Part shown: in pieces, positions 10,336 to 46,500 of the stretch
How the letters are laid out: the number at the start of each line of letters is the position of its first letter
Numbering within the stretch: the first letter of the stretch is position 1
DNA from: Membranipora membranacea
Taxonomy: Eukaryota > Bryozoa > Gymnolaemata > Cheilostomatida > Membraniporidae
Reading direction: 5' to 3'
DNA: 64,000 nucleotides
Assembly (NCBI GenBank): GCA_914767715.1
Contig: OU612072.1
Location: 17,486,001 to 17,550,000, forward strand
The notes under the pieces: generated by a model
Told to the model about the DNA's origin: nothing
Seen by the model: the letters and a program-made list of their open reading frames with translations, nothing else
The model's database searches: none
Program-made: the position numbers and the translations under genes

Positions 10336-13300
10336 ATGCCAGTTCTAAGTTTACAACCTGAGTATAGCAGCCTTCTCATGGATTATCCAGCCTACGACGA
10401 TTCAAATGTAAGTAGTACGCAATACGCAAACATTTTCACTGGTGTTTGATTAGACATCGGCCGCTTTTTCAATATGATAGATAGACGGTATGGTAATTTT
10501 GGACAGTAGTTTCTTTCCCACTATGCGTTCCGGCCAATTTCAGAATGAAATCAACCTTACGATAACTATAGTTACTCTCGCTGCTGCCCGTGTCTGTTCT
10601 ATTCCTTGACATAATTTGAACAGACACACTCAGTATTGGAACTACGATATACCATCTGAGGCCGAACTGAATACACCGAGATTTGGACAGCTTCCAATCT
10701 GAGAAGTGAGGTGTAGCATTCTTAAAAACGGCCCGTCTGATTGGCTGTTTGAAACTTAGCGCGTTATTCATAAATGATTTCAGCGCTTGACATTAACTGC
10801 AGTGATTGTTATATAAAGTTGATGGTGCTCCACTTTCTTTTTCATATATTGATGTAATCCAATTTATACAGTGGTGAATCAGTGTTGTTATTTAGTTTGG
10901 TTGTTTGCGTGTTATCAATATATGAGCTAATGTTGATGAGCCGTCAGTACCTAACAGGGAGTCGCTATGCTGACATGTACAGGGGACATGATAACTCATA
11001 TCATCACACTAATGCTTCAGCGGCAGCAGCAGCACTGCATAGCAATACTACCTCATCAGCATCATCATACCTCAATAACAACCTCACATCATCGGTAATA
11101 TAGCTAACCTAGCTTCTCCTGTCACTTCGGATCGTATGGCCCCATCCGCTCTTCCATGTCAAGAGATGTATACAACTTAGTTGGCAAGAATAATGTTTAA
11201 AATGTTTGAGAAGGATCAATAATTTTAATTTTGTACCATATATTTTTTAGCCGGAGTTCTACAGCTCAAGTCCGGTGACAATGACCGGGAGCTGTTATGA
11301 ACCCCCACCAGTGGACCATCATGGACTCATGGATAGTCAAACTCACAGACAATCAGCTCATTCTTATGGATATGCAGCTTATAACATTCCTGTTGCCAGT
11401 GCTATGGATCCGAGTATGAACATGTATCACCACACATTATGGCAGAACTCACAGCAGGCTCTTATTGATGATAAGAGGGGCTCAGTCATAATGGGTCAGC
11501 CCCTTCCTGCTGCTGCTCCTCCTGCTAAACGTAAAGGTGGACGTAAACCCAAAGATGATCCGGTCAGTATTCTGTACATATCATTACTTACTTTGAGCTA
11601 TACTGAATCTGTATCTTCTGATATAACTCACTCATAGAAATATTAGAGTATGGCACTGTAAACAGTGAAGGCACCACCATACACAACAAAACCACATAAA
11701 TATTATCAAGGGCAGTGTAAGCAAGCGTACACATACATGTACTATATAACTAATATCAATTTTCACATAAGAATTGGATATCCTCTAATATAACAGTATA
11801 GCCAATTCCTGTTAGCTCAATCACATTATGTGCTCTCAACTTTGGTAAACAGCTCCTTGATCAGACTAAATGGTCGTTGATGTCGGATTTTCCTGGTTTT
11901 TATCATTTCTTAGAAGAATGTTACTGAAAAATTCCCAATTTATATGAGGAAAAATCTGAATGCTGAATAGATTCTATTATAGACTTATTTTAGGGGGCAC
12001 AATAATTTACTTTTCTTTTACCATATATGACATAAGCTGTATATGTGAGAATGTGTAAACACAAGCTGATAGCCATTTAACTCCCTGTTACAAGGAAATA
12101 ATAGTGCCAAGTCATCTGCTATTCGTAGTTTCCCTCAGATCTAAAAGCAAGCGCTACGTGCGTGGAAAAAGGCGAAATTACCATGCTAGGGGAGCAATCA
12201 AATTTGAGCGGGTAACTCAGCTTAGCTCAATGGGAGCATACTCGTAGTAGTTAATCATGTAATAAGCAGTGGAGACACTGTAAACAGAAGTTAATGCAGG
12301 CACAAGTGTTTTTCTTATCAATCATCAGTAATACTAAACCTGAACACATGTTATGCTGTCCAAAGTTAGACCCAGTACAATTCAGTTGTACACAAAGAAA
12401 CTATTCCTTACAGAGAATCATCATCTACACAAAGAAAATTATAAATCTAGGCCACTCCAGCACACAAAGGTACTTACAGCACACAAAGGTACTTACTGTT
12501 TATTGTCCTGGTATCATACTACTATCATCTTACTCTAGATCACACAAGCAAAATAGTCGTGATGCTGGTTATTTTTGTATCAATAATCTTGCTATATGGT
12601 TGTGCAGCGAAATTGTTTATTGTGTGGTGTGGTCAAACCAATGGGACACCGATTCTGTGCAAAACCTTTACCCAATTTCCTCAGGATTTCAACAGGATTG
12701 ATAGCAGATTTCCGGTATTAGGCAATAAACCACTATTGTTACATAATCAAGCTTAGAAAACCAGCAGCATTAGGGCCTGTTTTCATGGCCTGGTCTCCTG
12801 GTCTCATGGCTTGGTAGTGAAATCAGGAACGTAATTGACTGTCATCTGACGATAATTATTTCTAAGCAAAAATGTGAACGTAATTTTTTTATACACTGAG
12901 AGGTGTAATATTGTGTAATGATTGATAAATAAATTAACTCACACAGATGATCTGAGTTTGTACTCAATATGCCGGCTCTAAGGGGGAGCAACAAGCTGTA
13001 CCTAGTCTCAGTACAGTCACAGCTTTGTAAAAAGCTGTTCGTAAAATCTTTACTCAGCCATAAAAAATTTGAAACAAAGAAAGTACATTGTTGAAGTGAG
13101 AACTCTTACGAAGGGCTCATGTAACAAAGTACACATTGAGTGCAGTGGCATTGTGTGACCTTACGATAATCAATACTCAAACACAGGAGTCTGAATTGAG
13201 TGTAATCCTTTCACCACATAGGTGACTGTGCTATGAATGTTGGAAAACAAGCGGAAGTATTAGTACTGAGTGGTGCCTCTTTCATGTAGTCCTGATCATG

Positions 13301-16300: not shown

Positions 16301-17936
16301 TCATTCTTGGCAGTAGCCCACTGCTCTGTCTAGGATGTGTGTAAATGCATGACGTGGTACTCAAATCTCTGTTCTGTGTTATTTTATGAACCTTCAAGCC
16401 AGAGTGTTCAGATCTAACAAGTATATGACTCGGGTCGGGGACAGGGAAATAAGTGAAAGGCCTAGCCTACTTTTAAAACCAAATTTCAATTGTAACTCAG
16501 CATAAAATGACCTAAAATATTGTTGTTGAGTTTTGCACTACAATTAAACCCTAACTTTGGCTTTGAATATCAAAATGTTGATCAGCTCCAAATAATAATG
16601 ACCATAGCACAGTATTAGTCATTTATTGCTTCTACAAAAGTTTGGCAATGATCTTGTTCTTTGTCTGGTTTAAAAGATAGCAGCTGTTTTCGGACTTGTC
16701 TCAGTGAATGCAATATTATTGTTGAATTGTGATTCATTTTGCCAGAGTTCGGATTCAGGTGTTTTGTTCCAAATTGATAGCATAAAAATAGTTCATTTAT
16801 TAGACATGATAAAAAAAGTGACTGATAAAGAAAAAACTGCACCGGTTGTACTCATTAAATATATATTCTTTTTTATTATTGTATTTTCAGCAAAACTTGT
16901 TAAAGTTCTAAGTCTCAAACCAAATATCACCCATGAGACAAAACCATTGAATTTCCAAATGTCCTAATGAATTGTCTGGCTCAGTATTAAGAGAAACCCA
17001 ACTGCTAATGTACCCTATCTGGTTATGGGAGCCCTGGCGACAAGACAAGTCTTTGATGAGCAGTCACCCCTCACATTGTGTGATATTTTACATTCTGCAA
17101 TGAGTCAACCAGTCAATTTTGTTGTTCAAAGCTGGTGATTCATTCCATTGTTACAGTTAATTTCGTTCTATATCATAATATCCATAGTGGACTAGAATAA
17201 TACTGTCCACTGTTATGAGGCCTAATCTAACGGACGGACGAGGGGCAAAAGTCTGGGGGGCTCAGACTAAGTACTGACTGGAGGTGATACTACCATACCA
17301 TAAAACTACTGCTAACAGTACAAGCCTGGAATAATACTTCCTCACCACCAATTTCTAGGGCTTATCCATATACTAAGTCTATATTAAGTCTATGGGCTTA
17401 TCTAATGCAGCATCTTATCAATCAGCCAAACTATTGGTATCACTTTCATACATTTCACCTTTGCATTTCAGCAAATTGAGCAGCTGGAGAAATCTACGGC
17501 TACATTCGAGGAGCAGATAACAGAACTTAGGCAGCACAAGGAGACATGTGAGAAGTTACTTCAGTCTCATCAAAATGACTGTACTAAATCATTATCATCT
17601 CCTGCCGCTACCTCAGTAAAGAGTGAACCGGCCAGCATACGATCTCCGCAAGGAGTAACCTCCCCTACTGCCTCCCCACCTGCCAGTATCAACACCCCCT
17701 CTCCTCAGCAAAGCCCTGTTGACTCTGTACATCACAGCTCTCCACCTTTGGCAGATCCTATGTTCTCTCCAGCTCAGCCTGACAGTGTGATGGTACCCCC
17801 TCCCTCCAGTTCGCTGAGTCGACGTAAGCAGGCCACACCGAGAGGTCTGAATCTGGATATCAGCTGTGCGGACAGTCATCGCCGATCGAGCAGCTCAAGC
17901 AGCGGAGATCTACAGTCTCCTAAAGTCATCATCTAA
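10336..17936 (+). CDS. Fos/ATF3-type bZIP transcription factor
   Basis: Five exons, all in phase 0: 10336-10407, 10948-11094, 11251-11562, 14633-14743, 17472-17936, giving 368 aa. The basic region (residues ~194-205) reads RNKDAAAKCRERR, with the bZIP N-x7-R signature and the AAAKCR core of Fos, ATF3 and JDP2. The zipper has d positions L212, L219, F226, L233, C240, and ends EKLLQSHQNDC, close to the Fos/ATF3 ending with H and C. An intron cuts just after the first zipper leucine. The N-terminus is rich in Ser, Ala, His and Tyr; a basic KRKGGRKPKDDP block ends exon 3. The C-terminal 120 residues are Ser/Pro-rich with several SP sites and a VKSE sumoylation-type motif. It should dimerise with a Jun-type partner on AP-1 sites. 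The exact orthology (Fos, ATF3 or an ancestral form) is undecided. Confidence 0.85.
12450..12495. repeat. Small direct repeat in bZIP intron 3
   Basis: AGCACACAAAGGTACTTAC occurs twice in tandem. The bZIP intron that contains it (11563-14632) is otherwise without any feature I could support. Confidence 0.5.
15285..15345. repeat. Tandem 20-mer in bZIP intron 4
   Basis: CAAAATATTTATAGAGTGA is present twice, separated by a few bases. The rest of the intron (14744-17471) shows no gene or recognisable element. Confidence 0.5.
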
Positions 17937-22619: not shown

Positions 22620-25600
22620 CTACAAGGAAGGAGAGGTGCTGCTGCACTTACCAGAGTTATCTGGTATATGTTTAGCTCCCCAGTAATGTTCCTGTTTACC
22701 CTGATCTAGACACGCTTTACATGGTTTGTGACATAATATACAGGGCAGCAGACAGCTTAGCACAGTGATTACTGTTTTCCTGCGACACTGACGCTCAGGC
22801 GTCTCGGGCACCTGCTGGTTTTCGTCCATATGCGCTCGATTATATTGTCCTCGTGAGTCTGTTGTACAACGCTTGAGACAGGAGTTAAGTGCTGGAGTAC
22901 ATGTACATACTTTCACTACCTTATCTATACTAGTACGCTGACTAGCACATGAGCCTTTTACATTGCAACTCTCATAGAACCACTGATCACAGGCCTGACA
23001 GAGTACATGCCTCTCACCGTTCAGACCTGCAGCTTGTCTCTGTCCGTTATCTAGTCTCGGTGGTGGAGGAGGAGGTGATGGAGATGGTGCTGGGTCCGAT
23101 GAGGAGGATCCAGTGAAGCAGCACAAGAGTGAGCTGACTTTGAGTGGTCTGCGTCTGCGTGTAGGTAATACAATCTGCTCTGACTCAGACTTACAGCTAC
23201 TAGATGTTGTATGTAGTGAGAGTGAGTCAGACTTCTTCACAGCGTCATCATCTGCTGTAGATGATAACAGCTTAGTGCTGTCTGTACCTACGGATTTTTG
23301 TGCTGTTTTCTTTTTTAGACTAGGGCTCAGATGCTCCTGGTACTCATCTCGATAGTCTCCGTATTCTCCAGGTATTTTCTTAGTCGTGGTACGTACTGCT
23401 TTCTGCACCTACATGATAGTAATAATTTAGTTAAAAAATATATATCATGTATATCTCATATTCACATCGCATAGTTCACTGTGAGGTTGATACAAAATTT
23501 GTCAAGTCTTTGGTTGAGAGCGGATGACTCCTTATATAGAGCTGTAGAATAAGCCTTTGCATGCCAAAATTAAATTTTACAGGGACTGCCATTTATGGCA
23601 TAATGCTATCATGGCCACCCAGGAAGTGTCATTTCAGAGTTATTGATATTGGTGGTGGGTGGTCCTGCCATTTCATCAAACATTGTTATATCAGTGTTTA
23701 TAGCTACAAAGCCTGCGGCTTCATTTCAAGGCGGAATATAACAGGGTAGCCTGACCCAATAATGCCTGCATAGTTTGAAATTAACATGATATCTCAAATA
23801 CCCATCGTATCAACTTACATTTTAATAAACTAGTTGAAGAAAACTTATAGAGAATCATTTTGTTCAATTTGTAATTTTCTAGAATTAAGAACAAGGCTAG
23901 TTTCTTGAGACTCTTAAACGTGTAGCCAGCTTCATCTCAAGAGGTTTACTCAACACTCTGTGAGAGCAGCTAAGATTGATATTTTGTATTTCAATTTAAC
24001 ATTTTCTATGTAATAAATGATGTATAACTAAACTTTTCTATCTAATTTATCACATTTTAAGATTTATTACCACCTGAGTTGTTACCATGTAAATACTTAT
24101 CGCCATATCACACAGCACAGATTGGTAATTCGGATTTTGGAATGAGCAATGTTGAATCCAAATTTGGAAAATTAGACAGACAATAGTGACATTCATTGGC
24201 CTGCACAGGATACTGATTGCTGTTTGGGAATATGTATGTGCCGTACCCACAGAAATATTATGGATATCAATTGGAAAAAGAAGCTGAAATTTCTAGCAGC
24301 TGATCATGGAGGCCATATCAAGCGTTTTCTATTATGACAGTACTACAATAGACTTTGCCGATTCAAATTTACGACAAGCAGTGGAAGTGGAGTCGATTTC
24401 CTTATTAGACATATAAACAGCACTTTGCTGATCATTTCAGAAGCTTCATTGAACATGAATTAATTGCTCAGTGTGTGGTGTTAATTTTTCTATCTCAATC
24501 TCATGATATTAAATGACTGTATATATTACTCACCGTGACGGCCCTGTTGCTGGGTGAGTGCTGATTTAAATGCTGTGTGTTCTGAGTTCTGTGAGTGGTT
24601 ATTGTGAGGGTAGTCGGAGGAGGATTATGACTATGAGTTATATTGTGCTGCTGGTGATTCTTCTTCATTCTCTCTAGATTAGCAGCTCGTGTCGGATTGG
24701 AGTGTCCCTGTGTGACTGCGGCTGATGTTCTTAGTTGGCTATTTAATGCTGCTGCGGTGGGGGGACGATGTGGGGTGGGCTGTGTTGTAGTGGAGGTATG
24801 CTCAGTCTGATTATGACATTTGTTAAGAGTAAGTGAGGAGGGGATGATTGTAGGCTGATGTGGTGGTATAGGTCTAGTAGATGGTGCTGCTGACCCTTGT
24901 CGTGTCTCTATATCCACTATAAGTTTAGTAGGATGATGTATGTGGGGTGCAGTGCAGTGAAGTGCTGTTGAGTGTTTAGTCAGTGCTGACTGTGTATTAT
25001 CTCGTATCTGTGAGGAGTGGTGCGAGCCACCAGCAGTGTGACTGCGTAGTGTACACGGCTTCTCAGCTAACGGTGGACCAGTAGCTCCATGGTGTCTTCA
25101 ATAAAAGAAATAATTAATACTAACACCTCACAAAGATAAATATAAAGATATTGCAGAGTGAGTATCTTAAGCAAACTGTAATTGTCATGCTCGACGAGGC
25201 AGGGTAACCTTGTTAGCATCAGCTCCTAAGTTCCTATCTTCCTCATCAGAAGCTGCCGTATTTCTACAGCGCTGTTTCATCTATTACAGCAGGTAATTCA
25301 CAGAATCACACAGATATAGTTATATTAATACCTGGGAGGAAGCTGAGGGGATTCATTCTCACAATCTGAGCTGCTACCACTATCCAGGGATGGATTTATA
25401 CCCCCACTGTCACTGTGTGGGTGTATATTCCCTGTTCCGTTGCTATTACCACTATGGGATGACTCTACAGAATCATTCCTCCTATAAAAAAAGGGTTACA
25501 AATTCGAGTTATGTTCTCTCTGAACTATAAGTTCAAAGAGTGGACAACTACCAAATTGTTGCTTCATATTCTGATGATTTTACCAGAAACCAAAGACAAA

Positions 25601-28029
25601 AAAATCATTGCATAGCAGTCATTGCTGACAACCTATACTCAAGCAATATGACATATCCATCCATATTGTTTGGGGGGGGGGAAGGGGGTTATGTATAACT
25701 ATCGTTAGGGTTATGGAAATAAACGGAGCGACACTCTTTCCTAATCAAGCAGCAATGGTTTCTGATGCACCGATTTATGAGAGGACATAATTACTTACGG
25801 GGATCTAGTGACAGATAATGATAGAGGTTTTGTAGGTCTTGGTGGAGTAGTCACTGCCTAAAATATAAAGTTATGTACAATGTTAAACAATCGATAAGGA
25901 TCCAGTTCAGAACAATTCAGCAAACTGATTGACTGAGCTCACAGGAAATCAACTTATTACAAGTTCATTGATGGCGTCAGATAAGCAGGGTATCATTGAA
26001 ATAATTTGATTTTGTGATTGTGGTTCCCATTTTACGTATGTGTATGTTGAACCATACTTCAGAGTAGAGTAACATAAATAACTGTATGCCCCCATAAATA
26101 TCGGGATGTATATGACTGCATGTAACAACGTACTGATACTGGTGCTGTGACCAAAACTAACTCTCTCATGGTAATAGGCTGATTTCTGATACAGCTAACT
26201 TTGATCTCACTATCTATCAGCTGCCGGAATAATCAACTAAGTATTTACAGGTAGGACAGCTGATAGCACAGCTTATATACACAGGTGTGTAGGGAGACGC
26301 TGCCTCTGATTGGGACAGATATTTAATACTGACCTGATGAAACCCAGCAGCAGCAGCGGCAGAAGGTGGTGATTGTGATGGTGGCGAGGACTCAAACACA
26401 TCTGAATCTGAAGAGTCTGAAAGATATCAAAACTTCATTGTATATATATATATATATAGAATATATATATACATGGCTAACAGGATCAAAACTTAATTTC
26501 AATTCACTATTTTGTCAAAATTGTTTGGTTTAGTAATAGTTTTATTATACGAATCAATGCCGACTATCAGACCATATTATGACTGAGTAAATGAGGCAAC
26601 TGTCCTAATGCAATGACCAAAAGCAGCTATCTACTACGGCCGATAACTGTGAACAGGAGCAGAACTGGTGAGAGAATATTATTATAGATTCTGAGAATAA
26701 TACTAGAGCTCTAATCATACATGATGCTCAAATGCGCACAGAAAAGGCTGGCAATATTCTATAACTAAATCAAATATCCACCAAGGTTGGACCTAGAGAT
26801 TGTGGCTTCTCTATCACACACTCATGTAATACCAACGAATACGTGCAAGCAGCACAGTTAATATGTTTAAAATAGATTCCTCACTTTAAACACAGAAAAG
26901 CTTAGAACAATAGTTAGCTAAAGCTAAGCTAAAAATTCAGTACTGGATTACTTTAAAACCACAAACCGTTATTAGGGGTGCGTCTCAGTGAAGATATGAT
27001 TTGGTTCATCTGCGAGCTAAATTTCTCTGCATTGCTTGTTAGGATAAAGTTAAGACGGTGCTCACAGCCCTTAGGGCAGGGCTGACAGCCATTAGATTTA
27101 TTACACCAGTGTATTATCAGTGCGGGTTTTCCGCTCTTATGGATCTGTGTATCAGCTGTAAGTCTGCATCTTATAGGTTCCTGTACAATAGTATAAACAG
27201 TATTATAGTATAAACAGTAATTATAGTATAAACAGTATTATAGTATATACAGTATTATAGTATATACAGTATTATAGTATATACAGTATCATAGTATATA
27301 CAGTATTATAGTATATACAGTATTATAGTATATACAGTATTATAGTATATACAGTATTATAGTATATACAGTATTATAGTATATACCGTTCGCAGATATA
27401 TAATATTAATGAGTTAATAAACTTGAAGCGTAAATCACAATCTCACTGCAGCAATACAAACAAGTTCACAATGTTTACACTGTAATCTATATTAAAGATC
27501 TGAGTTGAGCTATTTTACCCTAATAGATGCAGCTATGACGCAGAAGTTAACCGCTTGTCTGTCTGGTTAGCTCTGTTCACTTACACACCACAGTACTATA
27601 CCAGCCTATGGTCTATACATGTCACAATTATAATATGCCTAAGTAAGGGTAGCCATGTGTGCTATTCCATTCTGGGAATTGTGAATGAATAGAACTTGTT
27701 CGTTGGCTCGAGTTTGGAAGTCAATTTAGAGGATAACATCATTTCTTTTTGCTAAATTGGTACGATCAGCCTTATGTAGAGCTTCAGGGTAATATCTGAT
27801 AACCTCCACCTATAATGAGGGAGGGAGGAGTTATATTACTAACCGATACTATGTCATCCTCACAGTCACGTCTGGCTATCACATCAACTCCTTCAAAGCT
27901 TACAATCACCAGACTATTCTCTTTATCCATGTTCCACATGTTTGGCACCTGCTCATCTTTAACCATGAGGCGAGCTTTCAGCTCCAGCCCCTTGGTCAGA
28001 GCCAGCGGCCTGTAATCAACATTAAACAT
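22620..28029 (-). CDS. Spred-like protein: EVH1 plus Sprouty domain
   Basis: Seven exons, from the 5' end: 28029-27850, 27180-26967, 26416-26334, 25857-25799, 25481-25332, 25095-24534, 23408-22620; 678 aa, all phases consistent. Residues ~12-125 fit an EVH1 domain: LKARLMVKDE matches the VRVRAVVMTRDD strand of Spred, IRCRLTADTQIHK..ALIIHW matches VVLECVLKKDL..FHHW, and LNFILTSNAEKFSSQMNQII matches the last strand and helix. Residues ~552-670 are Cys-rich and follow the Sprouty pattern (LCQACDQWFYESC, VCTCTPALNSCLKR, VLSCLLPCILCHKPCKAC). Spred proteins sit at membranes, bind neurofibromin through EVH1 and damp Ras-ERK signalling. The linker is much longer than in vertebrates (about 440 aa in total there) and rich in Ser, Thr, His and Gln. 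The start ATG at 28029 reads straight into the exon; the same spot is also a good splice acceptor, so an upstream first exon remains possible. Confidence 0.75.
26430..26472. repeat. TA dinucleotide microsatellite
   Basis: About 20 TA units interrupted by one GA, in the intron between the second and third Spred exons. Confidence 0.8.
27190..27390. repeat. Minisatellite, 17-base unit AGTATATACAGTATTAT
   Basis: About eleven near-identical tandem units, the first three carrying AAACAG in place of ATACAG, with one unit reading ATCAT for ATTAT. It lies in the first Spred intron, starting a few bases upstream of the acceptor of exon 2 (acceptor CAG at 27183-27181, minus strand), so the array nearly touches the branch-point region. 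It is not a CRISPR: there are no unique spacers. Confidence 0.9.
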
Positions 28030-32034: not shown

Positions 32035-32112
32035 GTTCTTTGGAGGGAGGCCATATCAGGACTGGGAGGCCACATCAGGACTGGGAGGCCATATCAGGAC
32101 TGGGAGGCAATA
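32035..32112. repeat. Tandem repeat, 19-base unit GAGGCCATATCAGGACTGG
   Basis: Three and a half copies with two substitutions. It lies about 600 bases upstream of the first supported exon of the receptor gene. Confidence 0.85.
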
Positions 32113-32700
32113 ACAGGCACTGAAGCAGGTGAGAGTCACAATCAATCTCTCCAAATGTATTCCTTGCAGCTATCAATTTAAACATGGTACGAATCAAATT
32201 TCAAATCTCTTTAAAAATCTTTTATAAACCCACCCCAATATTTAATTATGCCGATTAAAAATGGGTGTTACATAAGAATCCATCTTCAAACAGTTAATAG
32301 TAATTGAGACACAAATTTGTCTGGAAGTAAATAAATACCTATATCTTTTGCTAGTATAAAACTTGGTGTTGACTTATTTTTAACACATAATTAAGTGAGG
32401 GATTGTTGGACCTGTCAACCAAATGCCTTCTAACTAAGATCATGAGAGCCACTGGATATGAAACAAATATAGTAAGTTGAACTGTGCCTAAGTAATCTAT
32501 ATATGACGCTACTGTTGTTATAGCCAGTGACAAATTACAACATTACTACAGCTGTTTACCTAGCTGCTTCACTTCATTTTTAATGATTATTTCCAATTTT
32601 TCCGATTTCAGTGTTCATAGTGTTTATAGTTTCGTGCTTGTTTATTACCACAACATCTTTTTGGTAATGAGACCTGCTGTGTTTTATTGTGTTATTTCAG

Positions 32701-33446
32701 AGCATTGTTGTATTGCTGTTGTCAATCTGGAGTGGTGATGTTATCTGTCAAACTGGGACGACAGGTATGGCCATTCAGGCTTCATATCAATATCTTTGTA
32801 TTTGTCATCTGAATATCTCTAAACGCTCTGGGTAATTCTGGTCGTACTGTCAAATTAAGAATATATACTTTTTTTTTTATTGGCATCAAAAGTCATCTCA
32901 TTCGAAATGTTTTGCACTCAGTGCCAGAAAACAATTTTTTTTTTATAACAAAAAAGAGAAACAGAAGGGAAATAATATCATCAATGATGTTGGTCAAGTC
33001 GATAATATATGGTTGAAAAGTAAAGTTTTGAATGAACTGAACTTCTCTTTAGATCTCAAATGTAACGGTAAAGAATGACCACCATTGGTCCGGAAAAAGG
33101 AAAATGCCTGTGAGAGAGTCCCTGTGGCTTGCCTTATTTTCACATTTGGACAGAAACTGAATTCAATCCTTATTTAATATCTTCTCTCTTATGTAGTGAT
33201 CGTATCTATTACTATTTTTACTCAGAGTGCTGCACTCCAAATCTCTGTGAATGGTTAATACAGGATCGAGAGTTGCTCCCCTCTGCTACTAAGGATGGGC
33301 CTGAGTACAGTAATAAAACCTTAGAATGGTGTCTGAATGAGTGTCAGAAGACTACAGCCTTCACCTGTCACAGTCTGGACTATAATAAGATCACAGGCAC
33401 CTGCAGACTCTCCTCAAGCCTCGAACTGACCGTAAAATACATAATT

Positions 33447-33491
<45 letters not shown>

Positions 33492-36400
33492 TACTAATTA
33501 TCTTCACCCTAACTTCACAAGGTCACTATTTTTGCTTGAGACTAATTGTCTCTAATATCAGTACAAAGAGAGCCATCTGACATTGAAAGTATAGTAGTTA
33601 CCCCATCTTTGATGGATTTTTCCCGTGTATTAGCAGACAGACCGTAATATCATGGGTACTATAGTCATACAATATGTGCCGGTGCTATCAAAACCAACCA
33701 TGGCTTGAGGTGATTACATGTGCTGATTGGCCAATAGTACTTTCTGTTTATTTCAGCAAACTACACGGTCATCTGACACACACCAGTTTTATTTGATACA
33801 AGAGAGCACTTGCCGAATCGTGTCGGCATGTGAGGGACTGGTGGCGTTAGATAACTCTGTACATTCGACATCACAGCAGACATTTCCTAACTATGATATC
33901 ATCAACTTGGAATGTGAATATTGGTATGGTGAACCAGTTCATTATTTAACACACAATTCAAAAAATTGGAGGGGCCTTTAGGGGTCGACCTTGGTTGCCT
34001 TACTAGCTTCAAATACAGAAACTTCAGGGTGCAATGCTCTTGTTACAACGAATGTTATTTCATAAATTATCGGATTGTGATTATGTTAATGCTGTTGTAT
34101 TCTCTCATAGCTAGTTCACTGTATTCACTACAGCTCTAGTATTTCCGTCTGTTTTAGCTATGAGTATTTGAGAGGAGATGACTATGTTACTTGTTACTAT
34201 AATAGCACAGTTATGGGAGAGCCGTTAGTTTGTCAGCCTGCCTCGTGTAGTGTCACCTCACTGATTCCTAATTCTCACTTACAGTTCTGTAGGTTTACTC
34301 CTGGTCATGTTAGAATGCTACCAAGCTGTAATCTGTTACCTCTCAATGCACCGATCAGCTTTAATTAGCGCTGTGTTTTGGTAAGGGAATATCTCCAAAT
34401 GCTGCTAAATTTGGTTAATTTTAACTGGTTCTATGAATGAATTTGCTGATATGTAATAACTTAATGGCATATATTGTGTAACTTCAGCTGAACAGACGAT
34501 ATCATGTGGTGGAGTGATTACAGCTAGTTGTGTACAAGGTTACTATGCACCCACTCCATCATCAGATCTGATATGTGGAGAACGAGGCACTTTGTCTGGT
34601 GACCTACCAAACTGCTCAATTATAACATGTCCTCCACCTCAAACTAATGCCTCATCTAACAATACAGGTAGACTGGTCTATATTATCATTAACCTGAGAA
34701 TTAGGTTTATATTATGTAGATTGAACACTTGCCTATAAAATTCGTAATTCTGCGTAAGATTTAGATAACCAATTGATATATTTCAATATCAAATATTATC
34801 ATGAGTTATGTCAGCACAATAATAATGAGATTTCTTGATGACTACATTTTACAAAAGAGACAGGAATTAATAATTTGATTATCTCTTACAGCTGGCACAT
34901 GGGGGTCAGTGATTGAGTTTTATTGTACTAATGGAAATTATCTGTATAACAATGATACACTCATCTGCTCTGGGGATAATCAGTTTGGTGGGTGGATTAG
35001 CACTGCCACAAATACAGGTAACAATGATACATACAACTAACTACACAGTATGCTAAGGGTAACACTTTGTTCTTATAGTAATGCTGCTCTCAAGTGCTGA
35101 TGGGTCAATCTGGCCAATCTGCTTCCAAGCTGTCAACTGAAATTTCAAACATAAAGTTATTATTTTTTTAATATCTCATATTCTGTATATTGGCTGCTAG
35201 TACAATAGATTTCTTGTGTTTGATTATATAATTTAGTTTCAGGTAGCCTACCATACTGCGGTCCAGCTCCTCAGTGCTCACAGATTGCTACTAATGCCAC
35301 ATTCACAGCCTCAGAGTCTACATTCATGGCTGGCACCACCATCCGCTTTTCCTGTCCCTACAATCAGGTAATAGATCTATCAATTTAAATGCAATCAAAA
35401 CATAATTATGCAAACAATCCTGATATCTGATCTTATAGAATGCAATGTTCTATCTGATTAAACTCAGAAAACAGATATCATTCACGCATTGGCTTTGCTC
35501 CCAATACATGCTGTCAATCCAATCCTTTAGACTAAAATATAGTATGATGCTTTTTTATTGTCAGGATAATATTGTGTTCGATTAACTGCTCAAGTTTAAA
35601 TTACCTCCATAGACTTAGTAATTAAGTCTATGATTACCGCTAATGATGATATATATTTGTTTATGTGAGAAGTAGACAACCTAACTTGTATCTGATCTCA
35701 CCATAGAGTCATTATACACTCTATATAAGATTATACTCTATATAATAACTCTATCGTTGTCTGTTCACTGAGCAACAGCAGACAACTTTCATTGATCAAT
35801 TATTGCTTTTCTCAGTGGATGCTCAATATTGAAAAGCATCCTCAACAGTTTATTTAATTTTTTTTAATGCAGTACAGTGTATAGCTGATATGTCATTTGT
35901 AAAATAATTTGTACAGGTATTGAACATAACAAACTCCTCAAAGAGCAAAGTGATTTGTGAGAGCACAGGATCTGATACAGTGGGGTGGTCAGGCACCATC
36001 CCTCACTGCACCATGAGGCCTGTATGTTCTGTACCTCAGACTAATACAACAACAGCGTACAATGGAAGTGTCGGAGCGGCAGGAGAACTATTTGCTGGTT
36101 CTACCGTTCACTTCTCATGTAATTCTGATTCTAGATTGGTAAGTGAGTGAAGCCCTAGACTTTTGGTCATGGGCGCATGCAGGTCTTTAACAGGGTGAAA
36201 CATACATTTAACTTTTGTTGCAATATATTGTCAAATGAAGTCCGAATTTCTTGTTGCCAGGTTTAGCCTTTGTATATACTATCTAGGGTAGATAGGGTCT
36301 GTAAGGTCACTAAACCATGTTCGGGTATGAGTTATCTCATAATATATATCGCAGGTAGGAGAGGGGAGTCTACGTTGTGAGTATGATGATATGAGCAGAG

Positions 36401-39252
36401 TATTATCATGGTCTGGTGATATACCTTATTGTGAGCTGATGACCTGTGACCTCCTCTATCTCACTGATAAACTTACAGGTCAGTCACCAGTGTGCTTAGT
36501 GTAGTGAGGATCACTCTGACTGGTGTATTATATCGTTGTTTTGAAAGGCGAGTTAGAAGAGACAGTTTATTTGTTGGTATGTTGTATTGATATTTTGATA
36601 GTTGTTGGAGGAGAGATGATTTACTTATTGGGTGAGAGTGCAGAGTTTATATGTGAGTATGGATACACCCTTCAAACCAACAGCACACTGGTATGTCTGT
36701 CTAACTCCACCTGGTCTGATAATATCCCACAGTGTGAACTGATAACATGTAACACCTCACTAGCAGACGATATACATGTGATATTACCTAATATCTCTCT
36801 ACCTTCAGTGGGTAAGCATTTAGTGCATTCTACAATCGTCTAATGAGCTGCTGACTGCACAATCTCCATGTCATTTTTGTTGAATAAGTTGTAAGATTAT
36901 GAGAGTTGTCTCCATTATTGTTCTTATTGTTGATTATATGACTGCATATAAACATTCATACGGATCACCACAGATAGATATAGAAGATAACGTGTAATTT
37001 CAGGTAGTATTGGCGATGTAGTGTGCAGTGACAACAGAACGCTCTCTGCTGATATGAGAGTAAGCTGTCAGATGAATGGTGAATGGAACATATCAACATC
37101 AGATTTACTAAAGTCGTGTATATCCGAAGCGGTCTTGCCTCTTGCCAATATCCGTATGTTATTGTTATTTATATTTTAAGTATCAACCTAAGTGGCCTGG
37201 TCAGTATAGAAATAGGATAATGAACAGTTGTTTTTAGGTCTGAAACACAAGAGGGCCATTTCTTCTGGCGGTGTCCGAAAAGACACCTGTTGAAATTATG
37301 TATGTCACACAACATAAGGTTGACATAAGGATATCTTGACCACGTTCATGGCCATGTTTGCTGTATTCTATATAATAGCATATACAACATCCTACTACAA
37401 TAAAATACATGATGTTTTCCTTTTATTTATTCTATATTGTTTGTAGTTGAATCTGATAACAAATGGTGGATATTAGTTGGTATATTGGGAAGCATGTTTC
37501 TAGCAGCTCTCATAGCATTCCTGTGCTGTTATTTCGATTGCTGCGGTTGGTTCGGAGGTGGACTTCGTCGCAATAAGGAAGATCCGGGAAAACGAATTGT
37601 CAAATATTCAGAGGTAAGCTCAGTAAGGTAATGTTTCTTTGCAATGTGCACATTTTCTTCAAGGAATATTAAACTAAATTTCATAATCATATTACATCTG
37701 TCAATTAGTCACTGAGTTATGCTCTCCTTCATATGTCATCATTAAAATTGTCTTCCATTATTTCTAACAGCTGTATCGAGTACTTTTACATTGATACCTC
37801 TTGTTTCATACGTTGACATTTTAGACAGCCACTAAACCCCATCACACATCATGTCTATGCGCAAAATGTGTAGGGAGTAAGCACATATGGGGCTGTACAT
37901 GCAAAGCCTGTCGCAGTTATAACTCTCTTACCAAGCACAATATGTGGTTATGTGCTCACTGTAATGTATCATTCCTACACAAGAGTAAAGATCTACTGTG
38001 CAACTGTAAAACCTGCAACACAAGCTCTCAGCATTCTCGTAAGTTCACCAGTAATATAACACCAGATGATACAAGTCCAACAACACATTCAAAACTCATT
38101 TGGATATAATAATAATAATATTTTTAGTGTGATTATGCTGCTTTTGGTATGAAGAAAGTAAAGCCCAATAGGTAATTATGAGTTTATTTTGTGACATACA
38201 TATTCCTTGAAAAGTGAGCGAGCAAACGGAAATTGAATGGTTTTTTTTGTTGTTTATATACCACAGTCAGTTGTGGATGTATGTGTCGGTGGTGTCAACA
38301 GTCGAGGGAACATTATCTACAGACAGTGTGTGACTGTACTACATGTAAGCAGGGAGAGAGTCATAGACGCGACATGACCCGGTGTAACTGTGCTCAGTGC
38401 AGAGAATTCAGATCTCACTCAGGATTTAAACTCTTACAACACACACAGGCCTGCACTGCCTGTCAGGTAAGGCTCATTACAGTCATTCCTTCTCCTTATT
38501 TGATGGACTCTGCTTCACAGCTAGCCTGTGTTGACAAGCTTTGTCAAGACAGGCTACTTCATAGCCAAACTCAAAGTTCTTTTCAGATATTCCATACACT
38601 ATAATATATACCTATTTATATTATAAACAGGTATGATTCCATCTTGTGATTCATGTTAAGCTAGACATGCTGTGGTGAGATGAATTTAAACATCAAACAA
38701 ACAGCGAGGTATCATAAAACAAACTTACTACATAAACCTGTGAGTCTGGGACAGCTACCGTGTCCCTCTATAGACATGGATGTCATACGTGAGACTTGTC
38801 TATCTCTGAGCTTTTTCTAAACTGAGCCACAACTCCGAGATGTACCAAGAAATGCTGTTGTAATACAATGTTAGAGCAATGAACTCCCTCTTGGTTAAAG
38901 CAGGGAGGGTGAGAGGGGGTATATCACACCCTCCCTGGTTAAAGTGACATTAAGTTAATGGTATTATTTGACTTTTATTTAAAATTCTATGATTATACAG
39001 ATCTCAGTGTTGCATGCTTTGGAGTGGACATGTGACTGCGAGGTGTGTTGTAAGGCTGTGAGTCACAGACAGCAGAATACATGTAGCTGTCGAAGCTGTG
39101 CTGAGTCACTCCAACATCATCAGAGGCTCATGTGTGCATGTCATACTTGTACAGTGAAATACCCTTCTCTCAAACGTATACAGTTCACTCCTAACTGTAT
39201 TTGTCCTATGTGTGAACGCATGGATTCAGCTCAACACACATGCAACTCGTAA
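32701..39252 (+). CDS. PAN/sushi single-pass receptor with tandem Cys/His tail (5' partial)
   Basis: Fifteen exons: 32701-32764, 33226-33431, 33757-33923, 34158-34327, 34488-34667, 34892-35017, 35243-35367, 35917-36138, 36355-36478, 36602-36811, 37004-37153, 37447-37613, 37825-38038, 38267-38466, 39001-39252 (858 residues; the ATG exon is not found). Order: hydrophobic IVVLLLSIWSGDVIC as the end of a signal peptide; a PAN/apple-like domain (CLNECQKTTAFTCHSLDY..GTCRLS); about six sushi/CCP modules with the alternating C and a W before the last C (for example GWSGTIPHC, TWSDNIPQC); a transmembrane helix WWILVGILGSMFLAALIAFL; then a 230-residue cytoplasmic tail of C-x-C-x2-C repeats. The ectodomain has many N-glycosylation sequons. 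All junction phases agree, but the donor of exon 4 (34327) is weak and forced by phase. Sushi/PAN ectodomains suggest adhesion or recognition at the cell surface. I know no named family with this tail. Confidence 0.75.
33442..33490. repeat. AT dinucleotide microsatellite
   Basis: About 20 AT units just downstream of the donor of the second receptor exon (33431). The array lies in the intron; read through, it would encode only alternating Ile and Tyr. Confidence 0.9.
37825..39252 (+). other. Tandem C-x-C-x2-C-x5-H repeat region of the receptor tail
   Basis: Three exons encode about twelve units of roughly 17 residues. Examples: CNCKTCNTSSQH, CMCRWCQQSREH, CDCTTCKQGESH, CNCAQCREFRSH, CDCEVCCKAVSH, CSCRSCAESLQH. 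A His follows the last Cys after exactly five residues in eight units; two units lack the first Cys (LCAHC and CTAC) and one lacks the His (CACHTC). Three Cys plus one His per unit is what a small zinc site would need. The unit that spans the junction of the last two exons (CTACQ | ISVLH) keeps the x5-H spacing, which supports that splice. The region follows the transmembrane helix by about 30 residues. Confidence 0.8.
38522..38556. repeat. Palindrome TAGCCTGT..ACAGGCTA
   Basis: TAGCCTGTGTTGACAAG and CTTTGTCAAGACAGGCTA are inverse copies with a central AGCT, in the last intron of the receptor gene. A longer palindrome at 58150-58221 and a shorter one at 61462-61487 share its ends, so it is probably a family of short inverted elements. 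Confidence 0.6.
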
Positions 39253-40576: not shown

Positions 40577-43500
40577 TCACATTGATATCTCAAACTCTTT
40601 ACTGAATTGTTGGTGAGAGTTATTTGTAGATGTAGTTGTATTATTACTGGTAGAGCCTGTAGTTGTAGCAGCCCCTGCCGAGGCTGGTAGGAATGGGTTA
40701 GTAGATGATGTGTTACTCCTCAGAGCCCATGCAGTATCAAATGGGTTCTGTGGATTAGACACAGGTGGGGGAGGAGATATGATTCCTGCTCCGCCGCCTG
40801 TACCAGTACCTCCATTAACTAGAGAGCTTCCTGATATATTATTGTTCACTGATATATGATTAGGTGAGAATGTCTGCTGGTGTGTGCCTCCTCCGTTCAC
40901 AGTGGGTTGAGCTATGGACCCCGCATAGGTGTTAGAATGATGAAGTCCAGCTGTGGGCCTAGGTCTAAAATTAAGATTTAGTTGAATCATTTCTGCCACC
41001 ATAGAAAACTCATAGCAAATAACTGTCTCATAGACCATAATAATATTTCGAGTCACTTTACAAACGCTATCAAAATGTTTCTTTTACTGGCTAGTGGCTG
41101 GTATGTACAAAAGCATAATGCCGCACAAAGAGAAATGAAGCCCTGATCACACATATATACCTGGCAGTTTGTTGTACAGCAGCTACATTGGTGGAGCTAG
41201 ATATTGTAGTATTCTTAGTCTGAATCGTAGTTATATTAGTCTGGGAACTACTACCCGCAGGTGGTAGCCAGAAATCGTTTTCTTGTGGTGCAGGCGCAGC
41301 CCAGGGGTTAGGCTGCTTAATCGGGTCAGCTCCGTTTACTGTGTAAGAATAAGAATATGGTGAACAGTGTTGTTAATATTTTGTGGTAGGATTTACCAAA
41401 AGTTGTGTGCCAACTTGGTAGGATAAGACAAATCTGAATTGTCATTGCATTTCTATGCACATGAAAGCAGGGAGGGTGAGATATACCCTCCCATCCTCCC
41501 TGATGAAAGAGCCTAAAATTGTAACTACATTATACTGTTGTTTAGTACCTGGTATAACATAAAACACACTCCTTTTTTAGCTTGATGAAGGATTGAGAGA
41601 CTGCTATTATAAGTATCTGAACCAACATAGGACGATGACTTATTTCACATCAATACCCATTTATGAATGATGTTGTATTACCCAAACTGTTAGACTAACT
41701 ATACAAACATTACTGAGAGTATCAGAAGAAGAAGAACATACCAGAGACAGCTGCAGTAGTATTAGCAGCAGTAGTATTAGATTGTGTAGTGGTAGATACA
41801 CTACTCTGATGTGTTACTGTAGTATTATTAGTAGATGTCTTATCATCGTTTAGTCCTGTCAAGCCTTTAGTTAACTGCTGGCACATCTCAGCTATAGGGT
41901 CCCATGCCTCTACAGCCTGCTTACTGGGAGCAGAATCTGTAAGAGCTGAGGCTAGAGTAGAGACCGGCTTCTGTGGAGACTCTGTATGTATAATACAGTA
42001 AGATAATCATTACTGACACTGGTAGTGAGAACTTATTTAGGCATATCTAGTGTTACAAATATTATTTTTGTCATTATCTTTACCATTAGCTAGCTGTTTA
42101 AATGAATTGTTATCACTGTCTCATTCGCTGAGAAGATGTTAAATTTGAAAAAAATCACAAGTGTGGGTAGTATGATCATAAGAGAGATGTGTACTATGAA
42201 CAGTCAAGTGATCAAACCTCCATTCCTTGTTACTGTTAGCGGTATTGCTCTAACAAGCACCTGTAGTGCATGAAGCTGTATTAAAGGGGAGGATTCAGAG
42301 GGCAGATGCATGTTTTGACTGCACCTTATTGTGGTTTGTACTGATGTTATAGTTATAACAAGTGGTCGAAAGTCGAATATCAAATATTTATATATACTGC
42401 ACAGAAAGCTGATAAAGTAATAATGATGTATATGTGGGTATATATGTGGGTATATATGTGGGCATATATGTGGGCATATATGTGGGCATATATGTGGGCA
42501 TATATGTGGCATATATGTGGGCATATATGTGGGCATATATGTGGGTATATATGTGGGTATATATGTGGGTATATATGTGGGTATATATGAGGGTATATAT
42601 GTGGGCATATATGTGGGTATATGTGGGTATAAGTAATGGCACAGTTTACTCTAACAATGCCATTGTGACTGTATTATATAGTACACTATACCTGGCTCAT
42701 CACCCTCTATGATGGGTATGTTACTTCCTGTGATCGGCTTATCAAAGTCGGCCTGCTGTCTCGATAGATTACTCGGTAATTCGTTCAGTCTCAGTGATAA
42801 GTTCCTCTTAAACGGTGATGTTTGACTGTAAAAAGTATAATAGGACTATGGCATCACAAGGCTATTTTACATTCATCAATGTTCAAATTTTATGTTTTCG
42901 TTCTGTTGATCTTTAAGCTCATTTCTACAGGAGACTCATATGGGGGAGAATTAAGGAGTCGTTGCAAGACACAATTTGGATATAGAAAGAAAGCTTAAGA
43001 GGCCAAACACCCAATTAGCTCCTCGATGTGAGCACTAAGCATCATCGCAACCATAAACAGCCAATCAACAACAGAGAGAGAGAGTAGAGAGGAGCGGATA
43101 CCGTTTTCTCGACTCGATCACTTCCTGCCACATGGCAGACATAGGATCTTCACTGGATTTGTACAAAATTAGGTTATCATTACCATAGCATGGTACATAT
43201 TGTGATAATATGTGTACAAGATGGACATTATTATTAGATCAACATCACAACACATTTTTCAATTTAAAAGCGACAACTTTTCAGTTAAAGACATTGCTTA
43301 ATATGCTGCTTGCATCTGGTTTGCTACCTGTTGAGTTTGTTAAATGTGTTGAAGCTGCCTTGTCTGAGTAGCAGATTTTGAGATGCATGCGGCCTCTCTA
43401 CCTGGGCTATCTCCACATTAGCCCGAGCAGTAACCGGAGAGGCTGCGGCAGCCGTAGGGTCCACAGGCTCCACTATTTTTGTTGATTGTGGATCAGCTAA

Positions 43501-46500
43501 TCGCTCCGTTAGTGTGGCCTGGCGGAATGAACCTAATCTAGCAAAGCCTGTAAATATAAGATATAAAACTTTGGTCGAGTATTAGGAAGTTGTCACATTA
43601 ATATCTCAGGATAGATAACTCCCGAGTTACATGTGACTGCTCAGCATAACTAAAGCATAACACTCAAAGTCAGAGGAGGGCGACTGAAAAACAGATTCCA
43701 TCAAGGTGCAAGTCACTAATATAGCTTATAGCTCATTAACCTTTATTAATGACGTTCATCGTATCAACTGTTCAGACAGTGAACTATACCACCAGTGCTG
43801 GAAGCTTTACCAGAGAGAATACATAGTTCTGTGAGTTCATTACATGAAGGTCATATTATGATATGGTTATGTACTATGAGTTAGAGATAAGAGAAAACAT
43901 ACTAGTTTTATCATCATTATAAGATACAGATACGGCCTCCTTCTCTCTCTTCTGTTTCTTCTCCAAACATACAGCGAAAGCACATCCGACAGCATGACTT
44001 AACCTCTCTCCCTATATAAACAGTAATACTACGACATCACATACAAATATCACACAAGGGTATTCTACCATTGAAACACCTATCTCAAAATACAGATAAT
44101 CGACTATGTAATTTTATTTGACTTTAACCAGAATTAATCAAGCTTTATCTGCATGGCTTCCTAACACACAGATATAATCTTATGTTGAGAGACTACCTCA
44201 ATAATCAGATAACTGGCCTACACTGTACAACAGATTTTGTACCCTGTAGAATATAACATGTGTTTAAGGTAAGCCCTACTGTCAGTGTGCTTGTTAAACA
44301 ACAGTGATATCGCTTCATGGTAAATTTACATGCAATGATATAAGAGACATGCTTGCTGTTAAAAACCCTCAGCTCAAAATGAACTTTCTGAACTCAGCAT
44401 AGAGTGAGGACAGCCCGAGGAGAGCCCCGAGCTGAGACCTGAGGAGAGACCTGAGGAAGGACCTTAGTACAGACCTTAGTACTGAGATAAGGGGGTTCAT
44501 ACACTCATCATGAGAAGGAGATAGCGGTATCGCTCATTAACAGCGAGTAAATCAGAATACATAAGATGAGCCTAGTCCCCAACTCGTTATCATTTACCAA
44601 CAAGAAGTAACAGTCAATGAATATGTAAAGGTTAGTTAGTGATGATTGTGAGGGATCTTGTTATAATTCAGGTGGTAGCATATAATACATGCTGATGTAG
44701 ACTACAGAAAACACAGGATTGTTGGTTTACTTATGGATAAGTTGAGAGGTTAACAAACATCTTCATCACATAAGCAGCGAAGTATAATTACATGTAGAGA
44801 CACTGCCCAAATAAATATCCAATATAAAAACAACAAGAGGGAATAACAACCAACCGTCATGGAGGATTTCAGCTGGAACATTTGACACACATTTATCATT
44901 TCAGTAGTAAGATTGTTATGAGACACGAAGAGATTGATTCACTACCGGGTAAGTTTCAATGAGAATTTCTGTCTACAGGGTTTGTCGACCTTTGTTCATC
45001 CCACCTAGTTAGTGAGCTAAGGCCAAAGTTTAACTTAGTAAATCTTGTAGAGTTATCCAATGTCATCTTTATGACTTACTAACTCCCCCTCCCCCAACTG
45101 ACTTGCAACAATAGAAAAATACATGGTTATCTGCTTCACACAAGACAGTAGACACTTGGTATATATGATAGTATCTGAGTTACACGCTCTGATCCTCTCA
45201 GTCTGGTATTATATAATATAATCAGAGTGCGCTGAGTGCTGACGATGATAAAGGGGACATACATACCGATTCTTTGAGGGCGAGGAATCCATGACACATC
45301 CATCTTCTAGTTGTACCATCTCTACATATATATGAGAATCCTTTCTCGTGATTACGATCTGGTGCACAGAATGAGACCTTCTCAATCGTTTGATCGACTA
45401 TCAAACCCTGTAATACATCATCACCATCAATATAACAGTGCTGATAACCCATCACCATCCCCATGTAGAGCTCATATAAACAACAGGCTAAACTCGTAAC
45501 AACAAACTGGCCACTCAGGATTAACCAGTAGTTTTTGTAGGCTTGATGCCTTTTCACAATCTGTTAATTTGTTTGCTGTTCAATATTTGGCATAAGATTT
45601 CAAAAAAACATGTGCAGACTAGAATCTAGGTCAATTGCTAGTTTCTACTGCATCAAAATCCACAACAAAATGATAATGAAAGCAATGATACTAACAACAT
45701 GATGCTGTAGATCACATAAAATCACAACATTTTACAACAAAAAATGGCACTTCACAGAAAACTAAATGATTTATTGGACTAACAACCATTGGCTTTGTGA
45801 AAAAGAATGTCATTTAAGGTTCACATTAATCTCAAGCTAAGGTAGCCAAAAAAGAGGTCAGGCATTCCAACTTGTATTAGGGATGCTTGCCAATTTTGGC
45901 ACGATCAATCTTGAAAGTGCATGGGGCATGGTTTTAGTAATTTTGTATACACAGTAGATTGTCTGAATGCCAGACAGACAGGGAAGGCTGTCACATCATT
46001 ACCTGGCCCTCATCAGTAGTTACACCAGCCTTGTCTTCTATAACTCTCAGAGAATCACCTGACACATAAATAATAGCCTGCACGACCTTAGGCCTCTTTT
46101 TACTTTTCTTACGAAAACTTAATCGGTGTGATTTCTTCATGTTCTAGAAAATAATTATCATAGCACGTGCAGCACAACAACGAATATCTAAAACAGGGAG
46201 GAACAATGGAGTTACTACGGTAAATAAAGCATAAATCTGAACACAGCGGATGGCGCGGGAGGTAAAATCAGCTCTGCAGTAACTGCCACACAGGAAGATA
46301 GATAGTATGGATATGATGAGGTATCACTGTGTATGACAGACTTCACTGAGATTAACCCAATGATGATAACAACGAAGTAGGTAAGCATGAGTCTTACAGA
46401 CTATTACATGATGTCTCCGATGTCAAAATAAATGTTGATAAGATACCACGAAAGAAAACAATTGTTATTATCCCAGGGATGGATAATGGCTTATTGAGTA

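Follow-up and report, generated by a model that had tools for sequence, protein, structure and literature searches.

A Cys/His repeat array in the predicted cytoplasmic tail of a sushi/PAN receptor: a candidate chain of zinc sites

Introduction

To our knowledge, receptor tails seldom carry zinc arrays. Small Cys/His sites such as the CCHC zinc knuckle, with the spacing C-x2-C-x4-H-x4-C, and the B-box of TRIM proteins are the nearest points of comparison in ligand order for the array described here, and two further systems resemble it in its cysteine motifs. The tails of CD4 and CD8alpha contain a CxCP motif that completes a zinc site together with two cysteines of Lck (PMC12198760, in excerpt). 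In the metallothioneins of Tetrahymena, a CXCXXC-containing motif is one building block; metallothioneins are as a rule smaller than 7-10 kDa and devoid of His and aromatic residues, some atypical members excepted (PMC1808422, in excerpt). As far as titles and abstract openings go, no description of a receptor tail of the kind reported below was found in the open-licence literature among the matches listed.

Here, we analyse a gene located in a 64-kb stretch of DNA from Membranipora membranacea (the window). Its predicted product is like the sushi/CCP and PAN receptors of animals in its ectodomain (Sushi and PAN_1) and in its single-pass type I layout, and differs from them in its tail; a sushi receptor with such a tail was absent from three homology searches.

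Gene model and predicted receptor topology

An 855-residue protein is obtained from a 16-exon model that was assembled manually on the basis of open frames and splice sites (Table 1). All 15 introns are of the GT-AG type and the exon phases are consistent throughout, exon 1 being the least certain exon of the model. The coordinates that the sequence-only reading gave for the tail are right; they cover three coding exons, the last of them running to the stop codon, whose frames are open and in phase with one another. An in-frame stop that forms part of the splice acceptor directly precedes exon 14, and the first and only Met of this exon, tail residue 40, falls inside the array; exon 14 must therefore join an upstream exon. 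Exon 13, which carries the transmembrane helix, ends in a phase that fits exon 14 and has a good donor, and the intron between them measures 211 bases, the introns of this gene ranging from 123 to 549. Moreover, the GC content of the tail exons is 45%, versus 27-39% in the 15 introns. From the frames, phases and splice sites, we infer that the gene is spliced as drawn.

Table 1. Features of the 64-kb window, with positions counted from its first letter.
Feature	Position	Strand	Content and evidence
Receptor gene model	32442-39252	+	16 exons
Exon 1	32442..32471	+	Start codon and beginning of predicted signal peptide; GT donor, phase 0 join
Exon 2	32701..32764	+	Hydrophobic core of predicted signal peptide; hydropathy
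Exon 3	33226..33431	+	Bulk of PAN domain; PAN_1 5.6e-6 for the isolated domain
Exon 4	33757..33923	+	End of PAN domain and linker
Exons 5-12	34158..37153	+	Sushi (CCP) ectodomain; Pfam Sushi 1.4e-17
Exons 5-8	34158-34288, 34488-34667, 34892-35017, 35243-35367	+	Sushi ectodomain
Exons 9-12	35917-36138, 36355-36478, 36602-36811, 37004-37153	+	Sushi ectodomain
Exon 13	37447..37613	+	Transmembrane helix and basic juxtamembrane stretch; phase 0 end, GAG|GTAAGC
Exon 14	37825..38038	+	Tail units 1-4
Exon 15	38267..38466	+	Tail units 5-7 and Cys of unit 8; matched by three relatives
Exon 16	39001..39252	+	His of unit 8, units 9-12, final Cys, stop codon
Tandem repeat	32045-32122		19-base unit, 4.1 copies
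Numb homologue, PTB domain exon	45222-45560	-	Pfam PID 5.6e-9; PDB Numb 1ddm 7.6e-29
Open reading frame, possible C-terminus of Numb homologue	40577-41083	-	NPF motifs, no Pfam match
Sprouty homologue	22623-23408	-	Pfam 5.1e-9; own Cys-rich domain
Tandem array	27188-27386		17-base unit, 11.6 copies, 97% matches
Tandem array	42429-42631		12-base unit, 17.2 copies, 94% matches
Long open frame	17406-17933	+	Prefoldin 16.7 bits vs cut-off 23.2; no Pfam family above cut-off
Long open frame	11251-11634	+	No Pfam family

The ectodomain agrees with the earlier assignment of sushi and PAN domains. In the whole-protein scan, Pfam Sushi stands well above its cut-off (64.3 bits versus 20.7) in four stretches, and it was also matched in two pieces of the protein scanned apart, in two and three stretches, respectively. 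PAN_1 exceeds its cut-off (26.6 bits versus 21.4) in the isolated domain only; the whole-protein Pfam scan at E <= 1 lists Sushi alone. The N-terminus is hydrophobic (hydropathy 2.24 across 15 residues from residue 12) and is taken as a signal peptide on this basis, while the best 19-residue hydropathy window of the protein (2.66, at residue 587) corresponds to the single transmembrane helix that had been proposed, with a basic stretch directly behind it. Apart from these two regions, no hydropathy window exceeds 1.6. Judged by hydropathy, the protein would thus have the signal peptide and single transmembrane helix of a sushi/CCP receptor.

Sequons for N-glycosylation distinguish the two sides of the helix. 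The ectodomain contains 17, against 7.8 ± 2.4 expected, whereas the tail contains 2 against 1.6 ± 1.1, i.e., at chance. This contrast is expected if the ectodomain alone sees the secretory lumen, and points to a tail that would lie in the cytosol.

The neighbourhood of the gene includes homologues of Numb and Sprouty on the minus strand, which mark the DNA as animal. The open frame that may encode the C-terminus of the Numb homologue would sit tail-to-tail with the receptor gene, and the 19-base tandem repeat lies about 320 bases upstream of exon 1. Scans of the window for tRNA genes and Rfam families were empty.

The repeat array of the tail

The tail comprises residues 635-855 of the protein, 221 in all, encoded by three exons, and contains 37 Cys, 17 His, and 11 aromatic residues. 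Twelve units can be recognised, starting at tail residues 10, 24, 41, 59, 76, 93, 111, 132, 149, 166, 183, and 204, with a period of about 17 residues; units 7 and 11 each span 21 residues, unit 7 having a long spacer and unit 2 an irregular one. The sequence-only reading had proposed about twelve units of the form C-x-C-x2-C; the number of units stands, while full motifs number 10, as two units lack the first Cys. Numbered from this first position, C3 and C6 are present in all twelve units and C1 in ten, being replaced by W in unit 3 and by Q in unit 8. In 11 of the 12 units, C6 is followed by a His before the next unit begins. Exactly five residues intervene in eight of them, which is the number first counted, provided that the His described as five residues after the last Cys is understood as having five residues in between. 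The His has another spacing in three units (x4, x8, and x7), unit 11 has none, and an extra Cys is found two residues past the His of the last unit.

This regularity lies far outside what the composition of the tail would produce. In 10,000 composition shuffles, C-x-C-x2-C occurred 0.94 ± 0.94 times (maximum 5), versus 10 in the tail, and C-x2-C-x5-H 0.45 ± 0.66 times (maximum 4), versus 8. Likewise, the tail has 17 Cys pairs 17 residues apart, versus 5.6 ± 2.0 (maximum 14), a value beyond every one of the shuffles that substantiates the proposed period. In the six frames of the window, C-x-C-x2-C is encoded 21 times: 10 of these occurrences form the tail in one frame and the other 11 are scattered, two of them containing a stop codon. 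Non-ligand positions compared between units score -3.8 on average, versus -4.2 for random pairs from the same pool. Between units, only Cys and His are alike above chance, and the Cys/His frame is what was kept.

A four-unit super-repeat following the exons was also considered, prompted by the equal length of units 7 and 11 and by the single register that MAFFT gave to the three exons. This idea was rejected, as the non-ligand similarity at an offset of four units was not above that at other offsets (permutation p 0.89). Besides the array, the tail contains two YxxPhi motifs, YNSL (residues 32-35, exon 14) and YPSL (residues 192-195, exon 16), where 0.47 ± 0.62 are expected by shuffling; these could be sorting or endocytic signals.

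Relatives of the tail

The tail has few relatives in a very large protein database. In homology searches of 5.8 billion proteins, six candidates for the tail as query included two relatives, and five candidates for a profile built from the exons included the same two and a third. These relatives (P0001, P0002, and P0003; E 8e-28 to 3e-25) are open reading frames on ENA contigs of 707, 611, and 1880 bases, respectively. They match exon 15 only, with identities of 52/65, 52/65, and 50/62 (80-81%), P0003 being without the first three residues of the exon. The match stops at the predicted donor of exon 15; beyond it, the three sequences resemble one another and not the window. The relatives therefore look like unspliced genomic frames, and the position at which the match ends also supports the donor. 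Because of the sequence that they share past the donor, they are taken to be closely similar copies of a single locus or of a small family, amounting to about one independent relative.

The middle exon of the tail is conserved in these copies in a particular manner. Across the exon, 15 of 65 columns vary, including none of the 16 Cys/His columns and 15 of the 49 others, a sparing with a hypergeometric probability of 0.008 when columns are treated as independent. Neither a relative of exons 14 and 16 nor a relative with the ectodomain attached was found in the 5.8-billion-protein searches, a method that detects only proteins of similar length sharing exact words. A query with residues 580-855 gave 97 candidates, none at E <= 1. 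Moreover, 15 pattern matches of exon 16 in viral contigs and 40 of exon 15 in prokaryote-only genome contigs included no confirmed one.

Comparison with described zinc-binding families

In line with the sequence-only reading, no Pfam or NCBIfam profile matches the array above its cut-off. In Pfam and NCBIfam, none of the described zinc-finger families reached its curated cut-off for the tail, and NCBIfam gave no match at all, the HMMER filters discarding most matches above about E 0.1. The Pfam candidates that were rejected comprise DUF2769 (E 0.022 and 0.011; 15.8 and 16.7 bits versus a cut-off of 22.8), the LapB zinc ribbon (E 0.002; 18.2 bits versus 25.7, unit 2 alone), and, also below the cut-off, the YjdM zinc ribbon and FYVE_2 (unit 2), DUF7695 (unit 10), and the Topo zinc ribbon (unit 5). 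EABR, a sub-cut-off match to one unit or its relative, is not a zinc protein, and IBR was likewise rejected as the family of the tail.

In the PDB, single-sequence phmmer searches with the whole tail and an inner piece had no hits. A first profile search returned 23 sequences, none significant, with ARHGEF2 as the best (E 0.014) and interleukin-4 occupying 15 of the 23 rows; PRDM9, the estrogen receptor, and the A118 integrase were among the other non-significant matches. A second search gave two, the TRIM41 B-box (E 0.3) and ZNF28 (E 2.2), neither significant. Altogether, the rejected Pfam and PDB-profile matches span E 0.002 to 4.7, the Pfam ones being sub-cut-off where bit scores are given. 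Some of the sub-cut-off matches are zinc ribbons, FYVE-type fingers, and B-box fingers, and most of the PDB profile matches are zinc proteins by molecule, interleukin-4 not being one. The PDB profile matches fit short Cys/His loops and are not homology.

Two of the described modules deserve a closer comparison. The likeness to the B-box consists of a non-significant 14-residue C-x2-C-x5-H match to TRIM41 (chain 2egm); however, the B-box profile is not listed in the Pfam scans of the tail or its units, which places the tail outside this family. The CCHC knuckle has the order C-x2-C, H, C that the tail shows when read across unit borders. The tail departs from it in the x5 and x5/6 spacing and in the single residue between sites, unit 1 coming nearest (x4 and x3), and no such match is listed in the Pfam scans; the array is thus not a CCHC knuckle as defined.

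Probable metal binding and possible ligand pairings

Since Cys and His alone are alike above chance between units, and since the tail is presumably exposed to the cytosol, metal ligation is the best reading of the array, and the metal would most likely be zinc. The gene may therefore encode a type I receptor whose ectodomain combines PAN and sushi domains, with a cytoplasmic tail of about twelve 17-residue C-x-C-x2-C-x5-H units that, in the reducing cytosol, would hold zinc in a head-to-tail chain of about one ion per unit. The ligands would overlap the units: each ion would be held by the C-x2-C and His that one unit supplies and by Cys1 of its follower, in a pattern (C-x2-C-x5-H-x5-C) that amounts to a CCHC knuckle with somewhat longer spacing. 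Neighbouring sites would then lie one residue apart, making the tail a stiff rod or ladder whose loops could be presented to cytosolic partners upon ectodomain binding. We give this explanation, taken as a whole, an even chance. Within it, we infer zinc from the Cys/His frame and the presumed cytosolic setting, whereas the pairing of the ligands, the rod shape, and docking are speculative, and any function beyond that of a scaffold or docking surface would be a guess.

The same receptor and the same metal-binding tail could instead form separate beads, each using the C1, C3, C6, and H12 ligands that a single unit provides, the C3H set first proposed from the sequence. Strict C-x-C-x2-C-x5-H sites within units number 6, against 0.07 ± 0.27 by shuffling, and all four ligands are present in 9 of the 12 units when the spacing is relaxed. 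Read across units, C-x2-C-x5-H-x5/6-C gives 7 strict sites against 0.13 ± 0.36, and again 9 of 12 with relaxed spacing and the terminal Cys counted. Thus, the two readings fit about equally well, and the overlapping CCHC sites seem slightly favoured. Overlap would explain the lone final Cys, as the last unit has no follower, and the His kept at x5 in units 3 and 8, which are without Cys1; separate beads leave the former unexplained and sit uneasily with the latter, although neither point is decisive. In addition, placing three Cys from a six-residue stretch on the same ion makes a tight loop, which counts against the beads. Structure prediction did not yield the confident C3H sites named beforehand as support: AlphaFold2 models of single exons, computed without metal on exon-cut chains with alignments of 3 and 5 rows, reached a mean pLDDT of 43.5 for exon 15 and 40.1 for exon 16, values too uninformative to count for or against either pairing. 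The separate beads appear less likely than the overlapping sites.

A membrane-tethered buffer resembling metallothioneins would store or sense zinc, copper, or cadmium in clusters and would have no docking role. The abundance of Cys in the tail and the CXCXXC motif that it has in common with Tetrahymena metallothioneins (PMC1808422, in excerpt) agree with such a buffer. Nevertheless, the tail is neither small nor free of His and aromatic residues, of which it has 17 and 11, and it differs further from these proteins in its regular period with His in phase, which makes a buffer unlikely.

Equally based on cysteine pairs, a tail resembling a zinc clasp would bind zinc through CxC and CxxC pairs jointly with the Cys pairs of a partner, as CD4 and CD8alpha do with Lck (PMC12198760, in excerpt). 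The tail shares with these receptors the Cys pairs and the CxC motif, found in 10 of the 12 units, and unit 12 reads CICP. However, CxCP occurs only once, and the clasp is one intermolecular site, whereas the tail has twelve units, most with their own C/H set; since most units carry four potential ligands themselves, a partner is not needed, and this arrangement seems quite improbable.

Finally, that the array is an artefact of the gene model, belonging to another gene or being unspliced to the transmembrane exon, would suit the relatives, which show one array exon by itself, but is very improbable given the Met inside the array, the agreement of phases and splice sites, and an upstream intron of ordinary size for this gene.

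Conclusions

The array itself is genuine and unusual. The reading that we prefer, overlapping zinc sites in the tail of a PAN/sushi receptor, would probably add a new zinc-array tail to an otherwise ordinary sushi receptor. More tentatively, the array could represent an undescribed repeat family, a cytosolic ladder of about twelve overlapping zinc sites joined by single residues on a sushi/PAN receptor of innate type that acts as a metal-dependent signalling scaffold switched by zinc or thiol oxidation, a possibility that we hold at clearly less than even. In the CD4/CD8-Lck clasp, the case of tail zinc compared here, receptor and kinase share one site. If true, a long zinc ladder placed straight after the membrane helix would represent a new design for an intracellular scaffold, and it would raise a question about how receptors signal in the lineage of animals carrying it.
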